64,000 nucleotides of DNA from an uncultured bacterium (GTDB lineage Bacteria > Cyanobacteriota > Vampirovibrionia > Gastranaerophilales > Gastranaerophilaceae): assembly GCA_902761735.1 (NCBI GenBank), contig CACWLL010000003.1, positions 1 to 64,000 of the forward strand, in the 5' to 3' direction. The stretch's first letter is position 1, and each line of letters opens with the position of its first letter. Of the stretch, positions 3,281 to 61,406 are shown in pieces. The position numbers were made by a program, and so were the translations under genes. The notes beneath the pieces are model-generated. The model saw only the letters and a list, made by a program, of their open reading frames with translations. It ran no database searches and was not told where the DNA came from.

Positions 3281-3627
3281 TGTTTATTTTACCTTATTTT
3301 AATTTTACAATAAAAATTTCATTAAGTCAGGGCTTGAAGATTTGACAATTGCTAAATGACGTGTTTTTTAGCTTTAATTGAACATTTTATAAGGGATAAT
3401 AAATTCCCGAAATATAGACAGGGAGAGGGCTTTCAAAATTGTAGGGTTTAAGCATGTATTCCATGTAATCAGGATTATAATTACGTGTTCCACTCCTGCT
3501 CCCTTCGGTCGCATAATCCAAACCTGAAAACTACTCCCTCAAAACAGGGTTGAAGGGATAACGGATTGCTGTCGGTAGTATTTTCCGTTTTGTATTATGC
3601 TACCTCGTTGCATCCGTTCCCACTTCA
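3281..3627. other. Intergenic stretch of the element, no gene seen
   Basis: About 350 nt without a plausible coding frame. The part from about 3480 to 3620 is richer in G/C than its surroundings and contains short inverted words such as CCCT/AGGG around 3535-3550. It could hold a structured RNA or an origin, but I see no recognisable motif. Confidence 0.3.
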
Positions 3628-3819
3628 TTATAACTTGTGCTTTGAAAGCTCCTGCAAGACTTCTATGAGCTGTTGCAAACACTCATGTGGCTTTTGCTCA
3701 ATTTGTAGTTGTATCGAGTGAACTTGCCAAAAATCCAGTACATTCCACTTTTTTATGTTATTTAAGATGTCATGAGTTAAGTTAACTACACTTGCTCTGT
3801 TCATTGGTCTAACAATCAT
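3628..3819 (-). CDS. Small hypothetical protein
   Basis: A 63-aa protein of unknown function. The C-terminal half (QLQIEQKPHECLQQLIEVLQ) is predicted helical and amphipathic. An AAGGAG-type ribosome binding site lies upstream of the start at a slightly long spacing. It belongs to the minus-strand gene group of the element. Confidence 0.5.
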   Translation of the reverse strand: MIVRPMNRASVVNLTHDILNNIKKWNVLDFWQVHSIQLQIEQKPHECLQQLIEVLQELSKHKL

Positions 3820-3849
3820 ATTTTATTTTCTCCTTTTTTCTTATTATTA

Positions 3850-3947
3850 CTGAGTTTTGGGCGGGTCAAATAGAAATTCAAAAATTTTCATAAATTCTGA
3901 TAAAAAATCTCAGTCATTTATGCTTTTGCTCCCGAAACCCGCCTCAG
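3850..3947. repeat. Discontinuous inverted repeat upstream of the 63-aa gene
   Basis: CTGAG (3850-3854) and GGCGGGT (3860-3866) pair with ACCCGCC (3937-3943) and CTCAG (3943-3947) across an AT-rich loop of about 70 nt. It lies in the gap between two minus-strand genes. It could fold in RNA or mark a binding site; it has no T-tract. Confidence 0.3.
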
Positions 3948-3964
3948 TCGGTTCTGTCGGCTTG

Positions 3965-4243
3965 TTAGTCGTATAAAATCACCTCAAGGACTATATCACG
4001 CAATAGCCAGTCCACGTCCTCTTGCTCCCATGTTTCAAAAGGTTTTATCTGCCTCAAATATTCGATAACACTGGACTCCATACCGCTGTAATTGTCCTCA
4101 ACGTGCTTACGGTACATTCGGATAATATCCATTTTCCTTATTGCATTAATAAGGGCATTTTTTACGGATGCGGGGGCTTTCTCTTTAACTTCTTCGATTA
4201 AATCGTATTTAGTTGCTTGCAAGTCACATTGTAGCTTATTCAT
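3965..4243 (-). CDS. Small hypothetical protein, partner of the RHH gene
   Basis: A 92-aa acidic, helical protein (MNKLQCDLQATKYDLIEEVK at the N-terminus, WEQEDVDWLLRDIVLEVILY at the C-terminus). An in-frame start ten codons upstream exists. The internal ATG at 4243 is preferred because AGGGGG sits about 7 nt upstream and the ATG overlaps the end of the ribbon-helix-helix gene by 8 nt (translational coupling). Co-translation with a small RHH protein resembles antitoxin-partner or plasmid-control gene pairs. No toxin fold is recognisable. Confidence 0.6.
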   Translation of the reverse strand: MNKLQCDLQATKYDLIEEVKEKAPASVKNALINAIRKMDIIRMYRKHVEDNYSGMESSVIEYLRQIKPFETWEQEDVDWLLRDIVLEVILYD

Positions 4244-4397
4244 GTTGCACCCCCTTGTCTTGGATGTACTCATGGATATACTGCCCTACAAGTACACTGG
4301 GGGTAGTTCTTTCTTCTCTCGCACGAGCCTTGAACTCGTGTAAATCTAAGCCATTAACCGAAAAGGTGGCTTTTACTTTTGAAAAGTTTTTTTCCAT
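4236..4397 (-). CDS. Ribbon-helix-helix DNA-binding protein
   Basis: A 53-aa protein. The pattern is that of the MetJ/Arc ribbon-helix-helix fold: a short beta-strand (KVKATFSV), helix A (LDLHEFKARAREERT), a turn (TPSV), and helix B (LVGQYIHEYIQDKG). Such proteins bind DNA as dimers through the strand and usually regulate their own operon, as antitoxins, plasmid copy-number regulators or relaxosome components do. Its 3' end overlaps the next gene by 8 nt. It lies upstream of the 92-aa gene in the same direction. Confidence 0.65.
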   Translation of the reverse strand: MEKNFSKVKATFSVNGLDLHEFKARAREERTTPSVLVGQYIHEYIQDKGVQHE

Positions 4398-4488
4398 AAA
4401 TTCTACCTTTCTGTATTTAAATTTTCTACAATTTATAATTTAATAAAGTGGGAGAATTTATGAAATTAGGAATAAAAAGTATAATTTT

Positions 4489-5217
4489 TTATTCCTGTGT
4501 ACTTTCATATAATTTCTTGTAATTATAAAACGTTGCACGGCTAATGGGTTGCTTGCCCGCCCTTGTTAGTTTTCCGTTAATAATTGCTACCATATCCGTA
4601 ACGGTTGTACTTTCTGCCTCTTTTACGGCTTTCATGTACTTTATGAACTCACTAGGCAAGTCATCCGCTGTCATGTTCTTACGTCCGAACTTAACTCCTC
4701 TCTCTTTCGCTTGTTGCCGTCCTGCCGTGCAACGTTCCATAGTTGTAGTATGCTCCTGCTCAGCTAACCAGTTAAATACAGCTAATACAATATCACTTAC
4801 AAGGGCTGTTGCAGGGTTATTATGCTTAATACGAGTATCAAGTATAGGCATGGTAGTAACAGCAAACTTAATGTCATTATCTTTCAACTCTTGAAACATT
4901 CTCATGTTGCCCTCGTATGACCTTCCGAGTCTTGTACACTCAACTAATAGTAGGCAAATATCCTCATTAGTCTTTAGTTTTTCCAGTTTCATGGTGTCAA
5001 TCAGCTTTAACAGGGCAGGTCTTGACTGGTCTGTGCCTGTTCTTGACTCTGTAACGAGTGTAATATACTTATTCAGCTCTTTAAGGTCTTTGTCTGCGTC
5101 AAGGTCGTAATCGTGATACAATATGCCGTCTTGCTTTGCAAAATCCGTTAACTGCTTGAGCTGTCTTGCGTATATCTGCCCGCTTGTGCTTTTCCTTATG
5201 TAACTATAGTACTTCAT
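4489..5217 (-). CDS. Serine recombinase (resolvase/invertase family)
   Basis: A 242-aa site-specific serine recombinase. The N-terminal catalytic region has YSYIRKSTSGQ, a variant of the YxRVSTxxQ nucleophile motif with the Ser after Arg-Lys. ESRTGTDQSRPAL corresponds to the SGxxxxRPxL element, and LVECTRLGRSYEGN to the LDRLGRS motif. The long E-helix segment TTTMERCTAGRQQAKERGVK follows. The C-terminus (about 205-240) has a short helix-turn-helix (PISRATFYNYKKL). The length fits small resolvases or invertases rather than large integrases. It could resolve element dimers or invert a segment. No paired crossover sites were identified nearby. Confidence 0.88.
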   Translation of the reverse strand: MKYYSYIRKSTSGQIYARQLKQLTDFAKQDGILYHDYDLDADKDLKELNKYITLVTESRTGTDQSRPALLKLIDTMKLEKLKTNEDICLLLVECTRLGRSYEGNMRMFQELKDNDIKFAVTTMPILDTRIKHNNPATALVSDIVLAVFNWLAEQEHTTTMERCTAGRQQAKERGVKFGRKNMTADDLPSEFIKYMKAVKEAESTTVTDMVAIINGKLTRAGKQPISRATFYNYKKLYESTQE

Positions 5218-5235
5218 GCCTTACCCCTTCCCGCA

Positions 5236-5257
5236 AAGGTAGCCATTAGGCTACCTT
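5236..5257. promoter_or_regulatory. Hairpin overlapping the stop codon of the 92-aa gene
   Basis: Perfect 9-bp stem AAGGTAGCC (5236-5244) and GGCTACCTT (5249-5257) with an ATTA loop. It covers the end of the gene at 5246-5524 and lies just upstream of the recombinase start. It has no T-tract, so it is more likely an mRNA stability or attenuation element than a terminator. Confidence 0.4.
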
Positions 5258-5524
5258 AAATCTTCTTGTAACTCTTTCAACTGCAAAAAGCTGATAAATA
5301 TTTTCATGAGCTTGTCTAAATGCTTTCATGTCTAAAGTTTTTGATAATACTTCTTTCCATGTTGCTGTACCGTTTTCAAGAGTGATATTATCAATTTTGT
5401 TTTCGGTTAAGTATTCTTTAATAACCGCCTCTTGGTTGCTTATTGCCTCTTTTAATTCTGCCTCTTTTGTGTAAAGGTCTTTCAATGTTTTCATCACTGC
5501 ATTTAATTCAACTTTGTTTGTCAT
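5246..5524 (-). CDS. Small coiled-coil phage-like protein
   Basis: A 92-aa protein with an N-terminal heptad-like coiled coil (VMKTLKDLYTKEAELKEAIS), then a short beta-rich domain (IDNITLENGTATWKEV) and a C-terminal basic tail (ERVTRRFKVA). This coiled coil plus small domain layout is common in small phage and plasmid proteins of unknown role. The start has a strong AAGGAG ribosome binding site. It is probably co-transcribed with the serine recombinase. Confidence 0.6.
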   Translation of the reverse strand: MTNKVELNAVMKTLKDLYTKEAELKEAISNQEAVIKEYLTENKIDNITLENGTATWKEVLSKTLDMKAFRQAHENIYQLFAVERVTRRFKVA

Positions 5525-5775
5525 AATGTGTACTCCTTTTTGTTTCTTCCTTATACTATTATTATAACAAACATTTTAATATTTGTCAAGATAATCGTCT
5601 AATTATTAGATATAATAATTTACATATCTTAATATTTTAGAAATTTTCAAGTATAGTCTATATTTGGCGGAATTTTTGGTAATTTTGAAGGTATCAGAAT
5701 TATAGTATTTTTTCTGTTATTTAATTTATAAATTTTTTAGACAGTAAAAATTAAACTAATTCTAATTAATTTGAA

Positions 5776-6183
5776 TTATTTATAGTAATTTTCAGGTGGC
5801 AAAATATTCTTGGAATCTTTGAATTTCATAAACTCTTGAATTTCTTTTATAACTGCCATAGGATATCCTAAATCTTTTAATAACAACTTTATTAGGAACA
5901 TAGAATTTTCTCTTAGATTTTTCGATTCGTCTTTTAGAAGTTTTTCAGAAAATACTTCTTCTAATGGCATATTAACTTTTCCCATTAATCTTATTAGAGT
6001 TTCAACTCTTGGTAATTTTTTCCCACTTTCCATATCAGACATTACCGCAATTGAAATTTTTTCTTGTTTATATATTTCTCGCATAGATAATCCTGAATTT
6101 TCCCGATATTTTTTAAAGGTCTTTCCTATTATTGCGGTTATCTCTTTATATATATTACTATTTCCACTTTGTTTTGCCACCAT
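5776..6183 (-). CDS. C1-like XRE repressor of the element
   Basis: A 135-aa protein with an XRE helix-turn-helix at about residues 18-75 (FKKYRENSGLSMREIYKQEK, ISIAVMSDMESGKKLPRVET). A helical C-terminal segment without a LexA-type protease motif follows. It is divergent from the excisionase/integrase pair, separated by 181 bp containing a promoter in each direction. That position is typical of the lysogeny-type repressor that silences excision and replication of an integrated element. The minus-strand promoter TTGCAA-17-TATAGT (6211-6239) should drive it. Confidence 0.8.
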   Translation of the reverse strand: MVAKQSGNSNIYKEITAIIGKTFKKYRENSGLSMREIYKQEKISIAVMSDMESGKKLPRVETLIRLMGKVNMPLEEVFSEKLLKDESKNLRENSMFLIKLLLKDLGYPMAVIKEIQEFMKFKDSKNILPPENYYK

Positions 6184-6210
6184 AATTTACCTCATATTAA
6201 CTACAATATA

Positions 6211-6239
6211 ACTATACTACAATCATTTAATATTTGCAA
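6211..6239 (-). promoter_or_regulatory. Sigma-70-type promoter of the repressor gene
   Basis: Minus-strand -35 TTGCAA (6234-6239), 17-bp spacer, -10 TATAGT (6211-6216), about 30 nt upstream of the repressor start. Confidence 0.6.
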
Positions 6240-6264
6240 CTTATTTTTATTTGTCCACTAAAAC

Positions 6265-6293
6265 TTGACAATTTAAAGCACTTGTGTTAGCAT
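6265..6293 (+). promoter_or_regulatory. Sigma-70-type promoter of the xis-int operon
   Basis: Consensus -35 TTGACA (6265-6270), 17-bp spacer, -10 TAGCAT (6288-6293). The predicted leader runs to the excisionase-like gene at 6365 and contains two copies of AATAAATAGAC (about 6306 and 6341), candidate sites for the divergent repressor. Confidence 0.6.
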
Positions 6294-6364
6294 AAAAGCG
6301 TAAACAATAAATAGACGGTTTACAAGAGTGTAGTAATAATAAATAGACAGAAAGGGAAATTATT

Positions 6365-6538
6365 ATGCCAGATTTTGGAATTATCACAATTAGAGATTTC
6401 GCTAAATCAATAGGGAAGCCAGAAAGCACTATTCGTACTTGGAAACGTAGGGGAGATATCCCTTCCAGTTGTTTCAAAGAAGTTGGAAATACTATATTTG
6501 TAAAATTGAAAGAAATACAAGAATGGCTTGCTGCGTGA
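6365..6538 (+). CDS. Excisionase-like small HTH protein
   Basis: A 57-aa protein with a MerR/AlpA-like helix-turn-helix: ITIRDFAKSIGKPESTIRTW followed by RGDIPSSCFKEVGNTIFVKL and EIQEWLAA. The pattern (fit to the 'xxAxxLgvs..tI..w...G.iP....g' profile, with a final short helix) is that of excisionases and prophage AlpA regulators. Its stop codon lies 7 nt before the integrase ATG and overlaps the integrase ribosome binding site, so the two are translationally linked. It probably directs excision by the integrase. Confidence 0.72.
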   Translation: MPDFGIITIRDFAKSIGKPESTIRTWKRRGDIPSSCFKEVGNTIFVKLKEIQEWLAA

Positions 6539-6545
6539 GGATAAA

Positions 6546-7604
6546 ATGAGTGTATACGATGTTAAATTTAAAAAAGACGGTATCGAAATTATCAAATGGT
6601 ATTGCAGTTTTCAGATAAACGGAGAACGCAAGCATCTACTTTGTCGTGGGGCAAAGAATAAAAAAGAAGCAATTCAAATGGAAAATGCTTTTAAGTACAG
6701 ATTACAGCAACAACAAAACGGGATTATTTCTCGTGAGGAAACAAAATTTTCTGTTGACAGACTTTGCGATACTTTTCTCGCTTACTCTAAAACAAATAAA
6801 AAAAGTTATAAGCAAGATAAGTCAAGAGTCAAAGTTATAAGAAAGTTTTTCTGTAAATACAAGTACATTAACAGCATACGGCTTGATAATATTGAACAAT
6901 TTAAAAATGAATTATTATCACGAGATTTAAAACAAGTAACGGTAAATAAGTATCTTGAGATTATAAGCAAAATGTTTAATATTGCTATTCGTAATAAATG
7001 GACAGTTGAAAATCCTGTAAAAGATACAAAATTTACGATTATAAATGATAATAAATTCAGAATATTAGGAATAGATGAACAGAACAAGCTACTAGACGCA
7101 GTCAAAGGCACATACTTAGAAGGAATTATAATATTTGCGTTAAATACAGGACTTAGAAAATCGGATATACTACCCTTGAAATGGGAAGATATTCAGTCAT
7201 ACAATGACAAAGTTATACACTTGTATGTGAGAAAAACAAATAAGTATGTTGATATGCCATGCACTAATATGTTGTACGAGTTCTTAGAACGTACTCCAAA
7301 GGGAAATAGACATGGTGCATTATTTATAAATCCTATAACTAAAAAAGCCCCTAAAGAAATTAAAAGAGCTTGGAATACAGCTAAAAGTAAAGCAGGCATT
7401 AAAAACTTTAGATTTCACGACTTACGACACACTGTTGCTACTCGTTTAGTTAATGCTGGGGTACCACTACCTACTGTAAAATTAGTTATGACGCACTCCG
7501 ACATAAGCACAACAATGAAATATGTGCACACACCTCAAGAAGAATTATTTAAGGCTATGGATGTTCTTAATTCATGTAATGAAAGTACAATTCAAAATGA
7601 GTAG
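6546..7604 (+). CDS. int: Tyrosine integrase of the tRNA-Ser element
   Basis: A 352-aa phage-type tyrosine recombinase. An N-terminal arm-binding region (about 1-65) and a SAM-like core-binding domain (about 68-165) are followed by a catalytic domain holding all expected residues: Arg in NTGLRKSDI, Lys in YVRKTNKY, His-x-x-Arg in HDLRHT, His in MTHSDIST and the nucleophilic Tyr in TMKYVHT. The ATG at 6546 is chosen over an upstream in-frame TTG because GAGG sits 5 nt before it. It lies between the excisionase gene and the right attachment site in tRNA-Ser, so it is the enzyme expected to act on the 29-bp repeat. Confidence 0.93.
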   Translation: MSVYDVKFKKDGIEIIKWYCSFQINGERKHLLCRGAKNKKEAIQMENAFKYRLQQQQNGIISREETKFSVDRLCDTFLAYSKTNKKSYKQDKSRVKVIRKFFCKYKYINSIRLDNIEQFKNELLSRDLKQVTVNKYLEIISKMFNIAIRNKWTVENPVKDTKFTIINDNKFRILGIDEQNKLLDAVKGTYLEGIIIFALNTGLRKSDILPLKWEDIQSYNDKVIHLYVRKTNKYVDMPCTNMLYEFLERTPKGNRHGALFINPITKKAPKEIKRAWNTAKSKAGIKNFRFHDLRHTVATRLVNAGVPLPTVKLVMTHSDISTTMKYVHTPQEELFKAMDVLNSCNESTIQNE

Positions 7605-7635
7605 TGTTCATAGTATGCACATACCATAAAAACAG

Positions 7636-7668
7636 AAAAGCCCTAAACTTATGTGGTTTGGGCTTTTT
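7636..7668 (-). terminator. Terminator between integrase and tRNA-Ser
   Basis: Stem AAAGCCC/GGGCTTT extended by AAAC/GTTT around a short loop. On the minus strand it ends in a run of T and follows tRNA-Ser directly. The plus-strand reading also ends in TTTTT, so it can terminate the integrase transcript as well. It lies inside the element and replaces the terminator displaced to 421-445. Confidence 0.7.
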
Positions 7669-7669
7669 A

Positions 7670-7698
7670 AAAACAGGAGGAGGTGGGATTCGAACCCA
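7670..7698. repeat. attR within tRNA-Ser
   Basis: Right copy of the 29-bp direct repeat, covering the acceptor 3' strand and most of the T-arm of the intact tRNA-Ser gene. Confidence 0.8.
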
Positions 7699-7761
7699 CG
7701 GAACGCGTGAACGTTCGACAGTTTTCAAGACTGCTCCAATCAACCGCTCTGGCACTCCTCC
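7675..7761 (-). tRNA. tRNA-Ser (anticodon UGA)
   Basis: Read on the minus strand, the acceptor stem is GGAGGAG/CTCCTCC. The anticodon loop contains CTTGAAA with anticodon TGA. The long variable arm expected for serine (about GTCGAACGTTCACGCGTTC) precedes a T-stem GTGGG/CCCAC with loop TTCGAAT. CCA is not encoded. The base following the acceptor stem is T, whereas bacterial tRNA-Ser normally has G73. It is the integration target of the neighbouring element and remains complete. Confidence 0.93.
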
Positions 7762-32309: not shown

Positions 32310-33434
32310 TTATGCGCTGAATGATTTGTAAGAATTATCAATATTCTTATTGATTAAATCTTTCATAACGCTGTATTCTGTTTGCAGAGCATTATGTTCT
32401 GTATCAAGCTTTTTCAACTCTAAATCATATTTGTTATCTTTTGCTTCAAGTTTTGCCAATTTATTTTTATAATCTTGTTCTGCAAGAGCTATTTTTCTTT
32501 CATCAGTTACATCTTGAATTGATTGATCAGAATCAATAGATGTTGATTTAAATTTTCTTTCAACCACAGAGTATTGTTCTAATAAGAGATTTCCTGCTCT
32601 TAATTCATTTTCAAACCAAGTATTATCCTTTAAAGTTTCATTTTCTTTTAGTTCGGTATAATATCCGTTGGAAGCCATTTTATGGAACAGGTTTTTCAGA
32701 TAATTTACATACCCGACATTATCAGGAACCGAAGTATTCTTCAAAGTTTTAGCAGAATCAGATGCACCGTAATAACTTTCTGTTAATGCTACTGCGTAAT
32801 CATAAAAGTCACGCTGTTCTTCATTTGCGCCTTCATAGTTAAGAGCTTTTGTTATACCCATATAAGTATATGTAGGATAACCGTCATAAGGTCCCGTACT
32901 AAATGATGTATAACCAAAATCAAGCCCGTGTTCTTCATCTTCACCTATATGAAGACCCACTGAAGTTAAATATTGGTCCCAAGCCTCGTGTACAGCTTTG
33001 TATGCATAAGCCTTCTGTGCCGGAGTTGCACTTTCATCATTTGCTTTAACGGTAATATTTGATTGTGAATAACCGAGATTGGCAAGAAACATATTAAAAT
33101 CACCATTTCCTGCCTCAAACGCTTTAGCCACTTCTTTTGTAACAAGGACTTGTCCTTTTTTATCCGTTACAACATATTGAGCACCGTTTGCAACCGTATT
33201 ATATCCCGTGATAAGTGCATATGAAATATCTGTATATATTTCTTCAGAGCCGTTAAATCCTGTAAGTACGGTCAACTTTGTCGCTTTTAAAGCATCAAGG
33301 TATTCTCTATTGGCTTGCTCTGTTTGGTCAGCAAGACGAATCTTAGCATACGAAACAGCCTGTCCTGAGTGTTCATTATCACTAAGACGAGCGGTTATGC
33401 TCAATAATCTCGCTTGTGATGCAGCCATACCCAT
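32310..33434 (-). CDS. MGxAASQARLL-family protein, paralogue 1
   Basis: A 374-aa protein of no family I can name. The N-terminus GMAASQARLLSITARLSDNE and a long helix (residues 1-60) precede a variable centre. A C-terminal coiled coil (about 300-374) contains KLDTEHNALQTEYSVMKDLI. The paralogue at 43828-45507 has the same N- and C-terminal motifs with a longer centre. Conserved helical ends with a variable centre resemble flagellin and hook-associated protein architecture. A sigma-28-like promoter sequence lies upstream (33480-33506). There is no classical signal peptide. Function inferred only. Confidence 0.7.
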   Translation of the reverse strand: MGMAASQARLLSITARLSDNEHSGQAVSYAKIRLADQTEQANREYLDALKATKLTVLTGFNGSEEIYTDISYALITGYNTVANGAQYVVTDKKGQVLVTKEVAKAFEAGNGDFNMFLANLGYSQSNITVKANDESATPAQKAYAYKAVHEAWDQYLTSVGLHIGEDEEHGLDFGYTSFSTGPYDGYPTYTYMGITKALNYEGANEEQRDFYDYAVALTESYYGASDSAKTLKNTSVPDNVGYVNYLKNLFHKMASNGYYTELKENETLKDNTWFENELRAGNLLLEQYSVVERKFKSTSIDSDQSIQDVTDERKIALAEQDYKNKLAKLEAKDNKYDLELKKLDTEHNALQTEYSVMKDLINKNIDNSYKSFSA

Positions 33435-43827: not shown

Positions 43828-45507
43828 CTATCCGGCGGCATCATATCGCATGAAGCCTTTCTTAATCTGATTTTGAATTACACTCTTTACTGTATCATAT
43901 TCCGTTGTAAGAGCAGATATTTCTGTATCAAGATTTTTCATTTTCATATCAAGAATATTTTCTTTAGAATTTATTTTTTCTTTTTCTCTGTTATATTTAG
44001 CTTCTGCTCTTGCAATAAATTGTTCATCAGCAATTTCTTTGATATAAGTATTTGTCGCATAACTTGCTTGATAATAATATTTGTCGTCAGAAATTGTAGA
44101 AATATACATACTGCCGTTTTTCATCATAGTTGCCAAGTATTCATTATCTTTAACGTTATTATTTTCAACCCATCCTTGAGTAGCGATTTGATTGAATAAA
44201 GCGTCATAGAATGATGCAACTAACATGTTATCTCCGGAAGTATCAGAACCTACAACAATGTTAAATGAAAAATCACTTCCGTTTGGAAAATCTGTTACAA
44301 AGTTAGATGTTCCTTTTTCTTTTGTAACTTTTAAATTTGTATTTGCAAGACCTTCCATATATGCTGCAAAGTACGTATAGAAGGCTCTGGTCATATTTGT
44401 GATATTCAAGTTATAACCATCGTTGTAATCATCACCGTTACTTGTATTTTTTACATAAATATAACCTACGTAATTTCGAGCTGTTCTCTCAGCATCGTTG
44501 AAAACTTTACTATCTCTATGATAATCTGATGTAAAACTATACGCCGCATTTGATAAATCAGGATGCTGATAATCGGAACTTAGGCTTATAACTTTTGCTA
44601 AGGTTTGTTGTTTAGCATATTCTAAGGCAGACTGAGCAAAACTATCATTTGGATCTAAAACAGAACTTAACGTGTAAAATAATTGATCCCAATATGAACA
44701 AGAACCAACTTTATCTACAACGCAGTTTCGTCCGCCGATTTCTTCATTGAAAATTTGGTCATGGTCCCAAGTATTACCGACTAATGCAATACCGCCATTT
44801 TCTTTCGGTGGCTCGATAATATCTTTGACACTAAAGACTGTCTTATCCATATCAACAATGCCACGACCATCACCGGCATCATATGTATAATCTCTATCGT
44901 AATTAATTAATTTTAAGTGAGAACCACCTGAATCTAAAGTTAAATCATTAAAGTCAAAAGTCGTATTATCCAAATAATTTTCCATAAATTCATTAAATGT
45001 AACTGTTTCTGTTTGGTAAGTAACAGGCATATCGCTGCCACCAAGACCAACTCCCGGATTGTATTGAACCGTTTTAACCCCGGATGCTACCGATTTTGTA
45101 ATAATACCGTTATCACATAATGCATCAATAAATCTGTTTCTTACATCAGAAGAAGGAGGACAACCTAAACCTTCTTGAGGAATACCTGCAGCCCTTGCTG
45201 CAGCAGCTAAACCTGAATCAAGAACAATTCTGCCCGAAGGGTCAGTAACCGGAGAAGGTTTATAATCATTCAATTTGGAAGGACTCATTAATAAAGCGTA
45301 CGACAATTCAGTACTCTTATCATTTGTACCATAGAAATCATATACAAGTTTGGTTTTATTTAACGCATCCTGATACTCATTGGACACAACGTTCATGTCA
45401 CGAGCAAGAGCAATTTTCTGGTGTGAAAGAGCCATTGATTGATATTCACAGTCAGATTTCCTTGCTGTAATCGTTAATAATCTCGCTTGTGATGCCGCCA
45501 AACCCAT
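43828..45507 (-). CDS. MGxAASQARLL-family protein, paralogue 2
   Basis: A 559-aa protein related to the one at 32310-33434. N-terminus GLAASQARLLTITARKSDCE, C-terminal coiled coil with NLDTEISALTTEYDTVKSVI, matching paralogue 1 (LDTEHNALQTEY). The centre is longer, Asn/Asp/Tyr-rich and unlike the paralogue. Conserved helical ends and a variable centre suggest a polymerising or secreted surface protein of flagellin-like design. That is inference. A sigma-28-like promoter sequence lies upstream (45565-45592). AAGG precedes the ATG. Confidence 0.7.
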   Translation of the reverse strand: MGLAASQARLLTITARKSDCEYQSMALSHQKIALARDMNVVSNEYQDALNKTKLVYDFYGTNDKSTELSYALLMSPSKLNDYKPSPVTDPSGRIVLDSGLAAAARAAGIPQEGLGCPPSSDVRNRFIDALCDNGIITKSVASGVKTVQYNPGVGLGGSDMPVTYQTETVTFNEFMENYLDNTTFDFNDLTLDSGGSHLKLINYDRDYTYDAGDGRGIVDMDKTVFSVKDIIEPPKENGGIALVGNTWDHDQIFNEEIGGRNCVVDKVGSCSYWDQLFYTLSSVLDPNDSFAQSALEYAKQQTLAKVISLSSDYQHPDLSNAAYSFTSDYHRDSKVFNDAERTARNYVGYIYVKNTSNGDDYNDGYNLNITNMTRAFYTYFAAYMEGLANTNLKVTKEKGTSNFVTDFPNGSDFSFNIVVGSDTSGDNMLVASFYDALFNQIATQGWVENNNVKDNEYLATMMKNGSMYISTISDDKYYYQASYATNTYIKEIADEQFIARAEAKYNREKEKINSKENILDMKMKNLDTEISALTTEYDTVKSVIQNQIKKGFMRYDAAG

Positions 45508-53654: not shown

Positions 53655-56627
53655 TTACAAACGAACACCGCTTTTGACAATGAACGTTTTGAATGTACTT
53701 TTAGCTTCTTCCAATTCAATATGCACATGAGTATTTCTGGTTTGTTTTACCAAACCTTCCGCAAGTTCAAACATTTTTCTTGCACCGTTAAGATATTCTT
53801 TTTGTTCATCCGAGCCGCTCAAACCTAATTCGTAAAAATATTTTCCGTATAAAAGATATAAACGGGATAATATATCATTCATTCCATATTTTTTAGCAAT
53901 ATCTAATCCTAAAGTTATATGAATTTTTGCGGACTCGTAATCCGATTTTATCATATACGCTTTTGCAATTATTATCTGTAATAGTGCTGCAAAGAAATAA
54001 TTTGCAATTTTTGGATTTTGAGCGACTTCAAGAGCCTTTTGTGCAATTTCCGAAGCTTCATAAGTATCAGTATTCAGCTTGGCATCTGCAATTAAATACC
54101 AAGTTAGTAAAGCCCCTATTGCCATCTTTTCCTTTGAAAAATATGCTATTTGATCATTATAAATACTCAAAGCATTTTCTGTTTTATTATTGTCTTTTAA
54201 AACTTTTCCTAAAAGCGTTTTCATTATATTTTTAGTAAAGTTATCCCCGCAATTATTTGCATATGTAACAACATGGAACAAATCATCCTGAATATCTTTA
54301 TATTTATGACGCATTATATTATTGAAAATATTTACAAAATTCCATTTTACGACAGTCATGTCACCGGCTTTTTCACGTTCAAAAGAGGAAGTCAAATCTT
54401 CCAAGATTTTATCAGATGAGCGGAAATCGCCTTTCATGCTATTTGCCAACGCAAGCGTAAGTTTACATTTATATTCAAAATCTTTATCTTGAACCTTTGT
54501 AACTGCAATATTATCAAATAATATTGTTAATATCTCAAACACCCTATTGTTGTTGCCCTGCATTACAAGAGCTTCTGCCAACACCAAATAAGCCTTCATT
54601 CGGCTTTCCATAATAAATTCCGTAGGAATATTTGAGTATTTATTATTTTGTGAAAGAATTTCTTCAAATACCGGTATAATTTCATTATCAACTATATTTA
54701 CAATCTGTCCGCAATTTCCGATTGAAAGCAATGATTTTAGCTTAGAACATTTTATAAGTACCTTCTCAAGTTTTTTTTCTTCGGGCAAGGATTTTAAAAC
54801 ATCATCAACACATTCAATATTGCCAAGATAATTTCCTGTGTCATGGCAACATTTTGACATATACCCTAATAGCTCAATTTGACGGGGAATATCGTTTATC
54901 GCCTTTGCATTGGCAATAGCATCAGGCAAATAATCCATAGCTTCCGCAGGACTGTAATCGGTCAATAATTTACCTAAACGTTCGGAAATATTATATCTGA
55001 TTCTCAAGGTTTCCGTATCATCAAGCTCGTTTATCAACGCAAGACATTGTTTTTGGCATAGTGCATATAAGTTGATATCCCCTATGTATGCGGCTAATCT
55101 TGTCCCTCTGGTCCATACATCCAAGCCTAATTTAGGATTTTTTATATTTTGCGCAATCCTGCCGAATATTGCATTCGAGTTTGGGGTAAAGCTTGCAAGA
55201 GCGTTACAAATCTGCGTATTCAATTCTATATATCGTTCGTCATTTTTAGCAATACTCAACATAGTTTCCCAAAGTAATAAATCTTTAAATTGGCAAAATA
55301 TTTCATTTAAAGGAGCAATAAAATTCATATTTTTTAAATATGCAATAATTTCTTCAAATACATTATCATCATAATTAAATATTTGCTTCATGAGATTGAG
55401 ATTTATTTTATCACCCAAAATTGCAGCAGAAGTTATAAATAGATAGGCTTCTCTATTTAACACACTCAACAAGCATATTCTTTTTGCAACTAAATCCTCA
55501 TAGGATTCCGGCAAATCAAACGGGGTATCAGAAATTTGACAGTCCAAACGTAAACCGCATGCCTGCTCAATATATGAACAATTTCCTTTACTTGTCGAGA
55601 ATATCAACTCGCGTTCCGAATCTGTTATATTTGGGAAATCCGTATTTTTTAATTCTTTATTTGCCAAAAAGCTCAGCATTCCATTTCTGTCAAGAGGAAC
55701 GATGCGCATATCATAGTATATGTTATCGTTTTCTTTACCTGATATATTAAAATATCCTCGTGACGGTTTATCACCGGAATAAATTAACAAAAATTTTAAG
55801 TCATTAAATACTGAATCTTTTTTTATATAACTGCTCAAAAATTCATAGGAAAAACCATCAACGGAATCAAAATTATCGGCAACAATTATAAATTTTGAAT
55901 ACATTACAATATTATCGAAAATTTTATTTAAAAGATTGTATGTTTTAACCTTTCTCTCTGAAATTTCTTCAAATATTCCAAATTTAGCCGGATAAAGAAA
56001 ATTTATAAAATCTTCTATTTCATCATTGCTTAAATAAGGGAATTTATTTCGAAACAATTTTGAGGCGTCTTTCGTGAATTTAGGATTATTTATACAAAAA
56101 TTCGGCAAATTGTAAAGATTAAAAATTATATCTTGAATGAGTCCGCCCGGAGTCAATTCGGTAATTGGGGTACATTTTCCATAAAACCAAACAATCTGTT
56201 TATCTTGCAATTTTTGTATAACACGAGCAAGAACATGACTCTTACCTACCCCTCTCAAACCGCTTAATGATATTATTTTTTTATCCTCAGACAATAGAGC
56301 CTGTTCTAAAAGGATTTCTGCATCTTCTTGAGAAAGTGCTTTTTGATTAACCTGATGAGATAAACCTTTATTAGGAGTTACTCGCTTCATTTTCTGGTCT
56401 GCCTCAAACTGGTATCCGCACTTGCGGCATGTTTTTGCATTCGGGAAATTAACACAACTACACTCGGGGCAAAGTTTTAAAATTTCTTCTCCGCATTTTT
56501 TGCACGCAATATCAAATATTGTGTTTACGGTATGACAATTCTTACAAATTAATCCTGTTCTGGTTTTGCAGTATGGACATCTTAGAGAATTGTCCGGTAT
56601 CGTTTTTTTACAAATTGGACATTTCAT
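53655..56627 (-). CDS. Zinc-ribbon P-loop ATPase with TPR-like tail
   Basis: A 990-aa putative signalling ATPase. Residues 1-75 hold three zinc ribbons, seen as CxxC pairs CPIC/CPYC, CKNC/CKKC and CPEC/CRKC. A P-loop NTPase domain follows (about 95-380): SLSGLRGVGKSHVLARVI is Walker A and FIIVADNFDSVDGFS Walker B. The remaining 600 residues are helical with TPR-like units (LLGYMSKCCHDTGNYLGNIE, LSRLYLLYGKYFYELGLSGS). This ORC/STAND-like plan resembles MalT- or adenylate-cyclase-linked ATPases but without a recognised output domain. It starts 17 nt after the sigma-factor gene. Confidence 0.75.
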   Translation of the reverse strand: MKCPICKKTIPDNSLRCPYCKTRTGLICKNCHTVNTIFDIACKKCGEEILKLCPECSCVNFPNAKTCRKCGYQFEADQKMKRVTPNKGLSHQVNQKALSQEDAEILLEQALLSEDKKIISLSGLRGVGKSHVLARVIQKLQDKQIVWFYGKCTPITELTPGGLIQDIIFNLYNLPNFCINNPKFTKDASKLFRNKFPYLSNDEIEDFINFLYPAKFGIFEEISERKVKTYNLLNKIFDNIVMYSKFIIVADNFDSVDGFSYEFLSSYIKKDSVFNDLKFLLIYSGDKPSRGYFNISGKENDNIYYDMRIVPLDRNGMLSFLANKELKNTDFPNITDSERELIFSTSKGNCSYIEQACGLRLDCQISDTPFDLPESYEDLVAKRICLLSVLNREAYLFITSAAILGDKINLNLMKQIFNYDDNVFEEIIAYLKNMNFIAPLNEIFCQFKDLLLWETMLSIAKNDERYIELNTQICNALASFTPNSNAIFGRIAQNIKNPKLGLDVWTRGTRLAAYIGDINLYALCQKQCLALINELDDTETLRIRYNISERLGKLLTDYSPAEAMDYLPDAIANAKAINDIPRQIELLGYMSKCCHDTGNYLGNIECVDDVLKSLPEEKKLEKVLIKCSKLKSLLSIGNCGQIVNIVDNEIIPVFEEILSQNNKYSNIPTEFIMESRMKAYLVLAEALVMQGNNNRVFEILTILFDNIAVTKVQDKDFEYKCKLTLALANSMKGDFRSSDKILEDLTSSFEREKAGDMTVVKWNFVNIFNNIMRHKYKDIQDDLFHVVTYANNCGDNFTKNIMKTLLGKVLKDNNKTENALSIYNDQIAYFSKEKMAIGALLTWYLIADAKLNTDTYEASEIAQKALEVAQNPKIANYFFAALLQIIIAKAYMIKSDYESAKIHITLGLDIAKKYGMNDILSRLYLLYGKYFYELGLSGSDEQKEYLNGARKMFELAEGLVKQTRNTHVHIELEEAKSTFKTFIVKSGVRL

Positions 56628-56644
56628 AATTCGTATCTCGATTA

Positions 56645-57214
56645 TTAATCATTTAATGATTTTTTTACTTTTTGCATTAATTTGAACAATCTCTTGGATA
56701 CTTCCGATTGAGAAAGGTTTAACTCCTCTGCTATTTCTGATTGAGTCATGCCTTCTCTGTAACGAAGTTTATATATTTCAAGATACTGTTTGTCCGGTTC
56801 TTCTTTATTAATTTTATCCAGAAAATCGGTTACGAGATTAACCACTTCATTTTTTATAGCGACATCTTCAGGACCATTGTCAAAATCAATAGGTTCATAT
56901 TCAACCTTTATATCGGAATAAATATTTGAATACGAAGTTGAATCACTCAACGAAACTTCTTTTGTAGACACATAAGCATTTCTGGTTCTTCTTAATCTTC
57001 CGGAATCTTTTAATACATTTAATATACTGGAGGTTGCAACTTTTCTAAGATACACCTCTAATGTTGCATCCGAAGATATAGTACTTATAATAGGCAATGA
57101 ACGCTTGCACGCTTCATTAAAAAAGTCCTCGTATAAATCTTCATTATTAATAAATTTTCTGTTTGCTCTGATTAATTTCTCAATCAAATCAATTTTATCT
57201 TGCGCTAATTCCAC
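56645..57214 (-). CDS. Sigma-70 family alternative sigma factor
   Basis: A 189-aa sigma factor. The region-2 part (about 15-80) has a shortened, divergent pattern with YLRKVATSSILNVLKDSGRL. Region 4 (about 135-185) is clear: YKLRYREGMTQSEIAEELNL, SQSEVSKRLFKLMQKVKKSL. The linker is acidic and Ser/Tyr-rich. Size fits group 3 or ECF-like factors. Upstream lies a membrane-spanning acidic protein and downstream the zinc-ribbon ATPase, all in one direction. That suggests a sigma factor under membrane control. Confidence 0.8.
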   Translation of the reverse strand: MELAQDKIDLIEKLIRANRKFINNEDLYEDFFNEACKRSLPIISTISSDATLEVYLRKVATSSILNVLKDSGRLRRTRNAYVSTKEVSLSDSTSYSNIYSDIKVEYEPIDFDNGPEDVAIKNEVVNLVTDFLDKINKEEPDKQYLEIYKLRYREGMTQSEIAEELNLSQSEVSKRLFKLMQKVKKSLND

Positions 57215-57250
57215 TTATGAAATTCCCCTACTTACAAAAGTATATCACAA

Positions 57251-60200
57251 CTATAGATAAATGATAAGAGCCAAATTAAATGTTTTCGTCGGAACCTCGC
57301 CACGGACAGGCTTTACGACATTTAGTGTATCTTTAACAGTTTGTAACACAATTTTATCGACTTGCTCAGAACCGCTTGAAGATACGACTGAAGCAGTTTG
57401 TATAGTCCCGTCGTTAGAGAGTTTCAAGTTTACCTTTACCATATTTGAATATATGTATTCGTTTGTTAGCAACAAGTCACTTGAAAGCGTTAATTTTATG
57501 CTCTTTCCTGCTGCCTGCAAATATTTATTCATATTCATGCTGTGTGAAAGGTAATTTGGCAGTTGCCATGACAATTTCTTCAAAGTTATATTTTTATTTG
57601 CATTAAGCGGTTTTTTGGATTCAACAATCACCTTTGAAGAATTTTGTTGTTTTACAGCTTCCTTTGCCTCTTTGATGGCATCTTGCTTTGCGTCCTTAGA
57701 TAATTCTATTTTATCCGCTTGCTGCGACGATTCATCAGTTGGTATAGCCGGTACAATTTCTTGATTTGCAAGAACATTACTGTTATCGTTTTCCGGAGAT
57801 TCCAAAATTTCATTTTCCGGAGCAGATTGAATAAGAGTTTCAGAATCTATGCTGTTTTTATTCTTGACTAAAAATCCGACAACCGTTGCTGCAATTATGG
57901 CTACCGTAACAAATGCAAATACAGGCATTAGAGAGAATTTTCTTTTTGGTCTGAAATCGTAATTTTCGTTTTCTAATTCCTGACTGTCAATATTTGTATC
58001 CGAATCAGCATAAAGCATGCCAAGCGAACCTTCCGTTTCTGGATTGGAATTTATTGGAGTAAATCCTGTCGGTAAAGCTTCTTCATCATCAAAATCATCA
58101 GTTTCCGAAAATTCTTGTCCTGAAGAAATGTCATCCAATGCGGAAATATCATCTAACAATGACAAATCATCCGAAACATTTTCAGCAGCCTCCTCGGTAA
58201 TATCAATATTTTCTACAACATCTTGGGAAGCTGTATTTTCAACATCTTCCTCATCTGCAAAACTTGTTTCTGCAGAAATTTCATCCGGTTGACCAAGGTT
58301 TTCTATTTCATCCAAACCATCTATTTCCGAAATCAATTCACCCGATTGGTCTATACTTTCATCAGGTAATTCTCCGATATTCAATCCTGAATTAAAATCA
58401 ACCCCTTCCGGCAAAGCATCCTGCTCTGACTTTTCTGCTGCAGCATCAAAGAAATCATCCGCATCGGCAACAGAAGCTTCTGTTGCAGCTGAATCCGATA
58501 TTCCAAATATATCTTCGTCAAAATCTGTTGACATATCAGATTCCTGCGGAGTTTCAACAGATAACCCTTCGGTTTCTAGGGACATATTGTCCATAGATTC
58601 ATCCGGTATTAAATCCTCAGTTTTTACGGAAGATAAATCTTTAATTTCTTCCGGCATATCCTCCATAAAATCATCCGAAGTTAAATCATCTTTTTTAATA
58701 GCCGATAAATCGTTGATTTCTTCCGGCATATCTTCTGCAAAATCATCCGAAGTTACTTCATCTTTTTTTGTTTCAGGACTGGTTGTTGCAGGCGCCGTAT
58801 TTGATACATCAAGAATTTCGTCATCAACAAAATCTTCTTCTTTAGTTGAATTCGGTAAAACAGATTCTTCAATATTGTTAAAATCAATCGTTACAGATTC
58901 ATCTTTAATTTCTGTCGGAACATAGTTATTAACAAGCCTGTGAAATTCGTCCATTTCCATAGTTTCCATTTGGCTGCCAATATCACTTGGAATATCCATC
59001 GGAGGGAGATTGCCCAACTGAATATTTTCCAACGAAACCAACTCGGTTGCTTCTGAAATAGGAGTATTTATTGCGGCAGGAATACCCTGTTTTACTGATG
59101 ATATGGAGCCTCCTGATGAAGATGATGAAACAGATGATTGGCTATCATCGTAATCATCATTATTTTCAAATATCAAATCATCGTCATAATCATCGTTATT
59201 TGAGAAAACTAAATCATCGGAAGAATCTTCAAAAGCTACATCGTCACTACTATCAGAACTTCCAAAATCAACATTGTCTGCTAATAAACCGTCATCAAAA
59301 GAACTCTCACTTGAAGTATCCCCGAATAAATCTTCTAAACTGCCAACAGAAGATGATGTATCTTCTTCTTGTACAGATATATCTTGAATTTCAGAAGGCG
59401 TTTCGGCAATCTGCTCTGTTGTTTCTCCTGTTGTATTATCAGGCGTTAACTCTGATAAAAGTCCGTCGATACCATCTGTCAAACCGTCAACAGCAGAAGT
59501 TTCTCCCGCATTATCGGCAATATCCATGCTGTTTAATTCGTCGAGAGTATCCGTCATACCCATAACAGATTGAGAATCCGTATTATTTGGAGCAAGTGCA
59601 TCAACGGCATCAGAAACAACGTCAGATGCAGTTTCTGCAATACCTGCCACCGCATCCGCAGCACCGGCCAATCCGGATATTGATTCTGCGGTTTCAGCCG
59701 CACCGGTTAATGCGGCGGATGCCATAGCTGCACCTGCAATTTCTGCACCAGCAATTGCGGTACCCGCAAGCATATCACCGATTAATCCATTACCCGAATT
59801 ATCTTCGGATGTTTCTTGATTATCATCTTCAATATTCAAATCATTAACAGATAATTCGCTCGTATCAAGATTTTCATCAAATACATCAGCAGTATCTAAC
59901 GTGTCATCAAAAATATCCGTGTCTAATTCTGCGGCTTCGGAGTCTGCATTATTTTCTTCGGTAATTTCAATATTATCTTGTTCTTCTTTAGATGAATCTT
60001 CTAAATAGTCATCAAATGCAACATCGTTTGCAGTTTTATACGAAAGCATTTCAAAGTTTTCAAATTCTATAAATCTATCTCTCAGCGATGCACTGTTTTT
60101 CAAGTAGTCAAGTAACTTTTTCTTATCTTCATTACTTATACTATTATCAGCCATTGATATAAATAGAAATTCCGCATCATCAAGTTCGGTTTCACTATAT

Positions 60201-60703
60201 TCTTTTGAGGTTGAACCTTTAAAATTATTTATAAAATTTTTCAAATCAACAGGAGAAGAGAGTTTTTCTTTTTCAATGAAATAATATTCACCGTTAGTAT
60301 TATTTTTATTAAGCATTTTTGGCTCAAAAAATCCTAAAAATTCAGTTTGAGAATAATCATTATTTATCTTTAGAACTATATACAAATCCGGAACTAAATT
60401 ATATTCAAAATGAGATTTTGGAATAAATATTTCGTTTTCGTTATACACAACCCTGACGTCAATATGAATATTTGCAAGCATAATATCTGAAATATCAAAT
60501 TCTTCAAGAAATTTTCTGATACTGTGAATATTATATATTTCACTGTCTATAATATTTTCATCTTTTAAATATTGCATGCAAACTTCTGCACCCAATACAT
60601 TTGTATATGCACGACTTCTTACATCTTTTTTAACAAAACTCTGAGTTAATGCTCTGGCATTCTCTTTTTCTTTTTCATCAACCAATAAAATATTATTTTC
60701 CAT
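57251..60703 (-). CDS. Acidic membrane protein: DUF1822-like N-terminus, TonB-like C-terminus
   Basis: A 1150-aa protein. Residues 1-230 resemble the cyanobacterial DUF1822 domain ('A..f.......r.a..nvLga.v...yL...', here RAYTNVLGAEVCMQYLKDEN, ending YSQTEFLGFFEPK). Residues about 240-930 are acidic, Ser-rich and low-complexity, with a triple 24-residue repeat (58553-58768) and Asp-rich NNDDYDDDLIF copies. One transmembrane helix follows (LMPVFAFVTVAIIAATVVGF, about 940-960). The last 85 residues read VKVNLKLSNDGTIQTASVVS and fit a TonB/TolA C-terminal fold. Topology would be N-in, C-out. It may be the membrane partner of the sigma factor (inference). ATG 60703 follows GGAG. Confidence 0.72.
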   Translation of the reverse strand: MENNILLVDEKEKENARALTQSFVKKDVRSRAYTNVLGAEVCMQYLKDENIIDSEIYNIHSIRKFLEEFDISDIMLANIHIDVRVVYNENEIFIPKSHFEYNLVPDLYIVLKINNDYSQTEFLGFFEPKMLNKNNTNGEYYFIEKEKLSSPVDLKNFINNFKGSTSKEYSETELDDAEFLFISMADNSISNEDKKKLLDYLKNSASLRDRFIEFENFEMLSYKTANDVAFDDYLEDSSKEEQDNIEITEENNADSEAAELDTDIFDDTLDTADVFDENLDTSELSVNDLNIEDDNQETSEDNSGNGLIGDMLAGTAIAGAEIAGAAMASAALTGAAETAESISGLAGAADAVAGIAETASDVVSDAVDALAPNNTDSQSVMGMTDTLDELNSMDIADNAGETSAVDGLTDGIDGLLSELTPDNTTGETTEQIAETPSEIQDISVQEEDTSSSVGSLEDLFGDTSSESSFDDGLLADNVDFGSSDSSDDVAFEDSSDDLVFSNNDDYDDDLIFENNDDYDDSQSSVSSSSSGGSISSVKQGIPAAINTPISEATELVSLENIQLGNLPPMDIPSDIGSQMETMEMDEFHRLVNNYVPTEIKDESVTIDFNNIEESVLPNSTKEEDFVDDEILDVSNTAPATTSPETKKDEVTSDDFAEDMPEEINDLSAIKKDDLTSDDFMEDMPEEIKDLSSVKTEDLIPDESMDNMSLETEGLSVETPQESDMSTDFDEDIFGISDSAATEASVADADDFFDAAAEKSEQDALPEGVDFNSGLNIGELPDESIDQSGELISEIDGLDEIENLGQPDEISAETSFADEEDVENTASQDVVENIDITEEAAENVSDDLSLLDDISALDDISSGQEFSETDDFDDEEALPTGFTPINSNPETEGSLGMLYADSDTNIDSQELENENYDFRPKRKFSLMPVFAFVTVAIIAATVVGFLVKNKNSIDSETLIQSAPENEILESPENDNSNVLANQEIVPAIPTDESSQQADKIELSKDAKQDAIKEAKEAVKQQNSSKVIVESKKPLNANKNITLKKLSWQLPNYLSHSMNMNKYLQAAGKSIKLTLSSDLLLTNEYIYSNMVKVNLKLSNDGTIQTASVVSSSGSEQVDKIVLQTVKDTLNVVKPVRGEVPTKTFNLALIIYL
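58553..58768 (-). repeat. Three tandem 72-nt coding repeats
   Basis: Three consecutive 24-codon units in the acidic protein: KKDEVTSDDFAEDMPEEIND, KKDDLTSDDFMEDMPEEIKD, and a diverged KTEDLIPDESMDNMSLETEG. The first two match closely at DNA level, so the duplication is recent. Confidence 0.75.
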
Positions 60704-60872
60704 ATCCCATTCTCCTCTTCTAAATATATAGACTACACGAGCTAAAAAATTATTCCAAATTTTTTGTAAATTTTTGTAACAAAAATTGAAAAACAATCAT
60801 ATTTTGGGCAAAATATATATATCAGTCGTTTTTCACATGGTATGGAAGTGTGTAATAAAAGGAGGTTTTCCT

Positions 60873-61406
60873 ATGGTAGGTCCTATACAATTTAGTGGTG
60901 GTTCTAAAGTATATTTCAGGGGAGATGATGATATCATTAATGCTCCGGGCAAGTTTGCCGAAACAGCGGCAGAACAGGGTCCTAAAGAAGATACTGTAGA
61001 AATTAGTTCTAAAGCAGAAGAAACAGAAAATGGCGGCAGTACCGGAAAAACAATAGCTAAAGTTGTAGGTGGTGCAATTGCTATCGCTGCTGCATTATGG
61101 GGTTTACATGCCTGGAAAGGTAATGAATGGATTATCAAAGAAGGTGAACAAGCTTCAAAAGATATAAACCTTGGTGATAAGATTAAAAATGCTTTGGTTA
61201 AACCGGGAGAATGGCTGGATAACAAGATTGTAAAACCTATTACAAAGAAGGTCAGAGGCAAAAAAGCTGAGGGTGGAACAAAACCTGAAGGAGAAACTCC
61301 TGCTGCAAAACCTGAAGGAGAAGCAACCGGAGCAACAGAAGCACCTAAAGCTGAAGGTACAACAGCAGCTCCTGAAGGAAACGCTGCCGAAGCACCAAAG
61401 GAATAA
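60873..61406 (+). CDS. Hypothetical membrane protein with Ala/Pro/Glu repeat tail
   Basis: A 177-aa protein. A short hydrophilic N-terminus is followed by one transmembrane segment (IAKVVGGAIAIAAALWGLHA, about 68-87) and a basic stretch (KPITKKVRGKKAEGG). The low-complexity tail is built of PEGE/PKAEG units (KPEGETPAAKPEGEATGATE). The ATG is fixed by a strong AAAGGAGG 7 nt upstream; earlier in-frame starts lack one. It is divergent from the acidic DUF1822-like gene. Unknown family. Confidence 0.65.
   Translation: MVGPIQFSGGSKVYFRGDDDIINAPGKFAETAAEQGPKEDTVEISSKAEETENGGSTGKTIAKVVGGAIAIAAALWGLHAWKGNEWIIKEGEQASKDINLGDKIKNALVKPGEWLDNKIVKPITKKVRGKKAEGGTKPEGETPAAKPEGEATGATEAPKAEGTTAAPEGNAAEAPKE

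Follow-up and report, generated by a model that had tools for sequence, protein, structure and literature searches.

The window analysed here, a stretch of 64,000 nucleotides, comes from a non-photosynthetic relative of the Cyanobacteria, a member of a sister group of that lineage. Its minus strand carries the genes of a DUF1822/TonB_C membrane protein, an ECF sigma factor and a zinc-ribbon ATPase, with gaps of 36 bp and 17 bp between them; the coordinates and strand of the three genes, as well as their adjacency, had been given correctly in a preliminary description of this DNA. The genes, their domains and a predicted promoter are the following:

60727 to 60756, minus strand: predicted ECF-type promoter, GGAATA-N18-TCTATA, conserved in most relatives and the genome's only site with at most one mismatch
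57251 to 60703, minus strand: membrane protein, 1150 aa, with DUF1822, anti-sigma-like helices, acidic linker, one TM helix and TonB_C-like end
60218 to 60703, minus strand: DUF1822 N-terminal domain, residues 1-162 (PF08852, hhalign, model, structural matches)
60074 to 60193, minus strand: anti-sigma-like helices, about residues 171-210 (alignment, zf-HC2 of relatives, motif count, modelled helices)
57938 to 60073, minus strand: acidic linker, probably disordered, about residues 211-922 (net charge)
57866 to 57922, minus strand: transmembrane helix, residues 928-946 (hydropathy 2.73, RPKRK ahead)
57290 to 57448, minus strand: TonB_C-like domain, residues 1086-1138, predicted periplasmic (TonB_2, TIGR01352, conserved tails)
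56645 to 57214, minus strand: ECF sigma factor, 189 aa, GTG start (TIGR02937, Sigma70_r4, SigW profile match)
53655 to 56627, minus strand: zinc-ribbon STAND ATPase with TPR-like tail, 990 aa (profiles, model, fold matches)
56394 to 56627, minus strand: three zinc ribbons, residues 1-78 (DZR 29.0 bits, six CxxC pairs)
55158 to 56342, minus strand: STAND NTPase core, residues 96-490 (Walker A GLRGVGKS, model, Apaf-1/MalT matches)
53850 to 54212, minus strand: TPR_MalT-like stretch, residues 806-926 (Pfam 18 bits, below cut-off)

The sigma-70-type factor announced by the preliminary description is evident from its match to TIGR02937, which covers most of the 189 aa with 78.3 bits (cut-off 42.9), from a match of 35.6 bits to Sigma70_r4, and from the SigW structure being matched by its profile (E=4.9e-4). 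The protein consists of sigma2 and sigma4 only, joined by a short linker (<about 50 residues), which places it among the ECF (group 4) factors. In the relatives L052, L073 and L057, the sigma linkers are much longer.

The neighbouring gene product had been portrayed as an acidic, membrane-spanning protein with DUF1822-like and TonB-like ends, and profile searches bear this out. The DUF1822 profile (PF08852) matches with 28.2 bits on the protein and 31.4 bits in a genome search (Pfam cut-off 25), the match covering only positions 3-155 of 370 in the N-terminal part of the profile; the profile has no match in 14 control genomes. Alignment with cyanobacterial DUF1822 by hhalign gave E=5e-10. The modelled domain (pLDDT 94.6) probably has a restriction-endonuclease-like fold: its structural matches, with Z 8.5 (rmsd 3.5, 119 aligned) and below, belong nearly all to the PD-(D/E)XK superfamily, and the best E in Foldseek was only 0.02. 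As far as the alignment indicates, D73 is kept in 38/40 and D82 in 33/40 sequences, and R84 (31/40) would stand at the would-be K of (D/E)xK.

Behind the DUF1822 domain, the model, which stops at residue 206, contains helices at residues 171-185 and 191-202. The class I anti-sigma domain is a three-helix bundle with a fourth helix that binds sigma. In membrane proteins of relatives, the zf-HC2 motif H-x3-C-x2-C directly follows the DUF1822 domain; the zf-HC2 profile matches nine of the ten relatives scanned (two above the cut-off) at the same place as the helices of the window protein, and a motif count finds H-x3-C-x2-C in 20 of 41. The window copy has kept the anti-sigma-like helices and lost the zinc ligands, H-x3-C-x2-C being absent; this motif, located over helices 2-3, defines only the zinc subclass of class I (zf-HC2/ASD) anti-sigma factors, and about 44% of the known class I anti-sigma domains do not have it (PMC7406223). 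As is typical of membrane-bound class I anti-sigma factors, the gene adjoins the sigma gene and the protein has a single TM helix. The structural matches of the DUF1822 model include no anti-sigma structure, an absence of little weight given that the list is taken up by matches to the DUF1822 domain. We predict from these sequence features that the membrane protein is a transmembrane anti-sigma factor.

The remainder of the protein begins with the linker, which is strongly acidic, with a net charge of -184 over the 715 residues ahead of the hydrophobic segment; a match of the linker to XopAE (NF041400), reaching 18.5 of 600 bits, was discarded as low-complexity noise. The only hydrophobic segment, residues 928-946, lies shortly downstream of 'RPKRK'. 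At the C-terminal end, TonB_2 (24.4 bits, cut-off 22) and TIGR01352 (28.0 bits, cut-off 27.1) are above their cut-offs, PF03544 TonB_C itself is below (21.8 bits, cut-off 24.6), and the TonB_C-like tails are conserved. TonB energy transducers have an N-terminal TM helix with an SxxxH motif for ExbBD and a long periplasmic part. The TM helix of the window protein lies at residues 928-946 of 1150 and has no histidine, and the protein is therefore not classed as a TonB energy transducer.

The third gene encodes, in agreement with the preliminary description, an ATPase with three zinc ribbons, formed by six CxxC pairs in residues 3-70 (DZR 29.0 bits, cut-off 27.3). AAA_16 and TPR_MalT are below their own cut-offs in this protein, and TPR_MalT is stronger in relatives. 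The core was modelled with a pLDDT of 90.5, and a fold search with this model, in which Apaf-1 (Z 21.9, rmsd 3.4, 311 aligned) and MalT (Z 21.3, rmsd 4.1, 322 aligned) were matched, settles that it has a STAND fold like these two proteins. The deeper families L056, L264, L266, L269, L270 and L278 have an extra domain separating the zinc ribbons from the ATPase; a likeness by eye to a dead class III cyclase was dropped, as Pfam and PDB profile searches returned nothing for it.

The predicted promoter ends 23 bases ahead of the ATG at 60703. The operon site is the genome's only match to GGAATA-N18-TCTATA with at most one mismatch, and autoregulation, that is, the sigma factor driving its own operon, is therefore predicted. 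Judged by sequence, the locus has, as expected of ECF factors, a putative ECF-type promoter ahead of its own operon. The element recurs before the operon in most relatives, the pattern having 175 matches over 117 genomes against 40 for the reversed pattern; the exact promoter rule is missing in 9 of the 31 loci having an adjacent sigma gene. As for a wider regulon, the counts in the genus equal those of the control save for the operon's own site, and matches elsewhere are scattered; weaker sites may still exist.

Separation of the three genes in relatives, or DUF1822 and TonB matches lacking significance, had been named beforehand as outcomes that would speak against a common system. The matches are significant, as given above, and a survey of gene neighbourhoods found the trio conserved as a unit in much of the order to which the host belongs: the membrane gene is followed by the sigma gene in 31/40 loci and all three genes stand together in 22/40, and gene order and strand are retained in several families in which the identity of the sigma factor goes down to about 35%. 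The genera g17, g18 and g22, in which a sigma gene lies far off or was not detected, have lost the promoter element and the acidity of the linker too; the lineages are related, and the joint losses may therefore amount to few events. In f6, the sigma gene is relocated and the membrane gene retains the promoter element. The membrane protein of g22 keeps the zinc motif and no sigma homologue was found there, so that this protein may have another partner or function. The GroESL genes do follow in the window, as had been described, but were never flagged beside the trio among the 40 relatives sampled, and were dropped as a component of the system.

The proposed link to the cyanobacterial lineage holds because cyanobacterial DUF1822 genes, too, immediately follow a sigma gene, in 76/79 loci. 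DUF1822, as yet an unassigned family, is common both there and in the host's order. The DUF1822-ECF link in Cyanobacteria has been known since 2021, when Kaur et al. described ECF and DUF1822 genes adjoining those of EACC2-caspase proteins (PMC8195603). SigJ (Alr0277) was weighed as the cyanobacterial DUF1822 partner and not adopted. We found no description of the present three-gene architecture in the literature, and no ECF sigma work on the host's group in the open-access literature searched; the three genes look like an undescribed signalling unit.

The computed results, namely the domain composition, the fold, the order of the genes, the promoter-like element conserved at the operon, the anti-sigma motif seen in relatives and the joint loss, lead us to infer sigma binding, membrane orientation, signal, release and the target of the ATPase as follows. 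The three genes probably form one operon that acts as a self-activating switch, composed of an autoregulated ECF sigma factor, a transmembrane anti-sigma factor and a STAND ATPase with a putative switching role. The cytoplasmic DUF1822 domain and the anti-sigma-like helices would hold the sigma factor, the TonB_C-like end in the periplasm would be the sensor, and an envelope signal would loosen the hold. The freed sigma factor would then bring RNA polymerase to GGAATA-N18-TCTATA in front of its operon and so close a positive feedback loop. MalT and Apaf-1 work by an ADP/ATP switch, and the ATPase, produced along with the other two proteins, would probably define the threshold or contribute a second input from the cytoplasm in the same way. 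Of what the preliminary description had suggested, the prediction that the membrane protein controls the release of sigma is well supported by the zf-HC2 module in relatives, the conserved ECF-type promoter and the joint loss of linker acidity, promoter and adjacent sigma gene, and the ATPase, to judge by its switch-class fold, may be a switch. Counting against the proposal are the missing zinc ligands of the window protein, the nine loci deviating from the exact promoter rule, the zinc motif without sigma factor in g22, and cyanobacterial DUF1822, which has neither a zf-HC2 motif nor a clear TM helix. The proposal gives DUF1822 a testable job, as sigma-factor partner, and a probable fold. It also outlines an apparent core signalling system in a group sister to Cyanobacteria, and E. 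coli could be used to test both the promoter and the predicted partners, with no need for a culture of the host. It is conceivable, at rather low odds, that DUF1822 is a restriction-enzyme-like domain turned sigma holder phylum-wide, the acidic tail here helping to hold and an NLR-like STAND ATPase gating release.

The recurrent promoter is found only before the membrane-protein gene, that gene has it in f6 in the absence of an adjacent sigma gene, and g17, g18 and g22 retain the gene apart from a close sigma homologue. The membrane protein might therefore be the output of the sigma factor, a TonB_C/TolA-like envelope protein, with the ATPase or another factor controlling sigma; we regard this as unlikely, since the zf-HC2 motif in relatives and the cyanobacterial DUF1822-sigma pairing indicate a sigma partner, although output and anti-sigma roles can coexist in one protein. 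The caspase neighbours reported by Kaur et al. (PMC8195603), a CHAT-CHASE2 protein at one cyanobacterial ECF-DUF1822 locus (its cluster in 16/80) and the Apaf-1/MalT-like core of the window ATPase would also agree with a degenerate relative of the cyanobacterial ECF-DUF1822-caspase/STAND stress or cell-death systems, in which the STAND protein is the sensor and the membrane protein an anchor. However, the trio has no caspase/CHAT gene, its distribution in the order is near-universal rather than patchy, and PADLOC gave only weak matches, none convincing, so that this origin appears improbable. The weakness of the PADLOC matches also led to the rejection of a defence system. Chance neighbours do occur in the window, GroESL being an example, but that the three genes themselves lack a common function is very hard to reconcile with the order and strand kept over several families and with a promoter-like element far exceeding its reversed-pattern control.

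Compared with known systems, the proposed switch shares with the cyanobacterial pairs (PMC8195603) DUF1822 directly beside the sigma gene and, at some of those loci, STAND or CHAT proteins as partners, as with the STAND protein here; the cyanobacterial sigma factors, however, have about 390 aa, as does DUF1822, which forms a protein of its own there, and the gene order is reversed. The class I systems RpoE-RseA and SigW-RsiW likewise combine a small sigma2-sigma4 factor with a single-pass membrane protein that is encoded next to it and carries an anti-sigma-like module, and have an ECF-type promoter ahead of the own operon. In the window, unlike in these systems, DUF1822 precedes the anti-sigma helices, the acidic linker extends over hundreds of residues, the predicted periplasmic end is TonB_C-like and the operon includes a STAND ATPase. 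TonB and FecI-FecR have in common with the unit a TonB_C-like domain and, as proposed here, sigma control across the membrane; the TM helix of the window protein differs in lying near the C-terminus, and its long part is predicted to be cytoplasmic. Among the larger ORFs of the window, none was noticed that would encode a FecA-like receptor. The ATPase shares the NTPase fold and Walker A with MalT and Apaf-1 and the TPR-like tail with MalT, but has no C-terminal HTH or CARD and carries zinc ribbons at its N-terminus.

The trio probably encodes a novel form of the ECF/anti-sigma kind of system. As the preliminary description had reported, its genes cluster on a single strand, here the minus strand of the window, which comes from contig C3 in a genome of 2.0 Mb. 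Judging by this genome size and by same-phylum genomes that have DUF1822 genes of cyanobacterial type, the host probably belongs to the Candidatus Gastranaerophilales, a non-photosynthetic group related to Cyanobacteria. The gaps between successive genes are 36 and 17 bp, and a search of both for a terminator-like site found none.

57251-60703, minus strand: DUF1822/TonB membrane protein, ATG at 60703, preceded by purine-rich AGAAGAGGAGA
56645-57214, minus strand: ECF sigma factor gene
53655-56627, minus strand: zinc-ribbon ATPase gene

The DUF1822 and TonB-like ends proposed for the membrane protein were upheld by profile searches, in which DUF1822 and TonB_2 scored above the Pfam cut-offs and TIGR01352 above its own. 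The DUF1822 match is limited to profile positions up to 155 of 370; profile-profile comparison with cyanobacterial DUF1822 proteins confirmed the homology (96.6%, E=5e-10). The sigma factor is clearly of the ECF type (TIGR02937, 78.3 bits). The structure model of the ATPase core (pLDDT 90.5) matches the folds of Apaf-1 (Z 21.9) and MalT (Z 21.3), and the protein is a STAND NTPase with zinc ribbons N-terminal of the core and a TPR-like tail C-terminal of it. A second, diverged zinc-ribbon protein of this kind (1196 aa; L081:2491-6081, G000 contig C1) is encoded next to a glycogen synthase-like gene. In deeper families (L056, L264, L266, L269, L270 and L278), an additional domain of ~165 residues lies between the ATPase and the zinc ribbons, for which Pfam and PDB profile searches found no match to a known family.

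DUF1822 was detected in 151 of 192 genomes of the host's order and in 0 of 14 control genomes, and every one of the matches listed in a class-wide search came from this order. An ATPase homologue was detected in 115/117 genomes. Gene order was surveyed in 40 fully read loci, with outliers deliberately included: the complete trio is kept in order in 22, and the membrane gene precedes the sigma gene in 31; it lacks a neighbouring sigma gene in the other nine, one of which is truncated by a contig end. GroESL, previously mentioned as following the three genes, is not kept alongside the trio in these loci. Sigma and ATPase genes are still paired in G086 and G095, two genomes in which DUF1822 had no match; they are preceded in G086 by a gene with a TonB-like end and in G095 by a large gene.

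Alignment of the first 206 residues in 40 relatives revealed a pattern directly behind the DUF1822 domain, ending in HLxxCxxCR. Pfam placed zf-HC2 there in nine of the ten relatives' proteins scanned (above cut-off in two), and the strict H-x3-C-x2-C motif, a signature of zinc-type class I anti-sigma domains (PMC7406223), occurs at residues 198-211 in 20/41 proteins. The window's clade retains helices at the equivalent place (in the model, residues 171-185 and residues 191-202) but not the zinc ligands, a common loss, since about 44% of known class I anti-sigma domains are without them (PMC7406223). The model of residues 1-206 (pLDDT 94.6) finds its top structural matches almost exclusively among resolvases and nucleases of the restriction type, at Z scores from 8.5 down to 5 and a Foldseek E of 0.02 at best; DUF1822 may, with caution, be read as a restriction-endonuclease-like fold, a Z near 8 being borderline. 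Most relatives keep D73 and D82, but nuclease activity is doubtful because position 84 is usually Arg in place of the expected catalytic Lys.

Most loci have in common, upstream of the membrane gene, the predicted promoter element GGAATA[AT]TTT-N14-TC (GGAATA-N18-TCTATA), which an exact motif rule finds in 22 of the 31 loci where the sigma gene adjoins the membrane gene. Judged by sequence, it resembles ECF promoters, with GGAAT and a TC or CGTC -10. The operon's element is the only site in the window's genome at <=1 mismatch. A stricter core gave 175 matches in 117 genomes versus 40 for the reversed pattern, and the site recurring across genomes was the operon's own. Positive autoregulation is typical of the ECF class (PMC8103513). 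In family f3 (L065, L071, L072, L075 and L076), the sigma gene is adjacent, but another conserved element (TTAATGATA-like) is upstream of the membrane gene, perhaps reflecting co-evolution of sigma region 4 and promoter. A 206-aa gene (60786-61406, plus strand) diverges from the operon and has relatives in the equivalent position within the genus.

Loci that depart from the usual arrangement serve as natural experiments. Family f6 has a relocated sigma gene (in complete cases detected with an E of about 1e-51) that is preceded by a sigma-70-like sequence; the membrane gene retains the GGAATA element, with slightly different spacing in L077. Genera g17 and g18 have a distant, diverged sigma homologue, and a search for one in g22 found none; in all three genera, the element upstream of the membrane gene is altered. 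Short and neutral in these genera, the linker between the anti-sigma-like helices and the TM helix has a charge per residue of -0.04 to +0.04; in loci with a neighbouring sigma gene the values run from -0.13 to -0.35 (L066, which is split, being left out). In genus g14 (L052:5997-7820, plus strand; L073:4889-6346, minus strand), regions 2 and 4 of the sigma factor are separated by a huge acquired acidic insert, hundreds of residues long, and the membrane protein has a short linker, as though the acidic stretch had switched partner. It should be noted that the joint changes in f6, g17, g18, g22 and g14 may be few events, because kinship was not corrected for.

Most likely, the N-terminal half of the membrane protein would keep the sigma factor at the membrane, an envelope signal via the TonB_C-like end would free it, and the freed factor would transcribe its own operon, with the STAND ATPase probably tuning the switch. 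The initial proposal was largely right, although incomplete: membrane-controlled release is probable, and the ATPase is a putative switch. The promoter-core search of 117 genomes found no second recurrent target, and therefore the membrane protein and ATPase may be the main output. Through the trio, the DUF1822 family gains a testable function.

In Cyanobacteria, DUF1822 likewise adjoins a sigma gene, but lies behind it: the sigma gene is directly in front in 26 of 30 strong DUF1822 loci, and a reverse search from one such sigma factor found DUF1822 directly behind in 76/79 loci. These factors are ~390 aa, with a long insert separating regions 2 and 4, and profile comparison aligned them with the window's factor in region 4. 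ECF and DUF1822 genes next to EACC2-caspase systems have already been reported by Kaur et al. 2021 (PMC8195603). One gene cluster, whose sampled member is a CHAT-CHASE2 protein, lies near 16 of 80 cyanobacterial loci.

Elsewhere in the window, the region 2120-7761, in which an integrase-like gene (6528-7604) adjoins a tRNA (7675-7761) and which also holds resolvase-like and replication-protein-like genes, is probably a tRNA-integrated mobile element. Two proteins (32310-33434 and 43828-45507) share the N-terminal start MG(M/L)AASQARLL.ITAR and are apparently paralogues.
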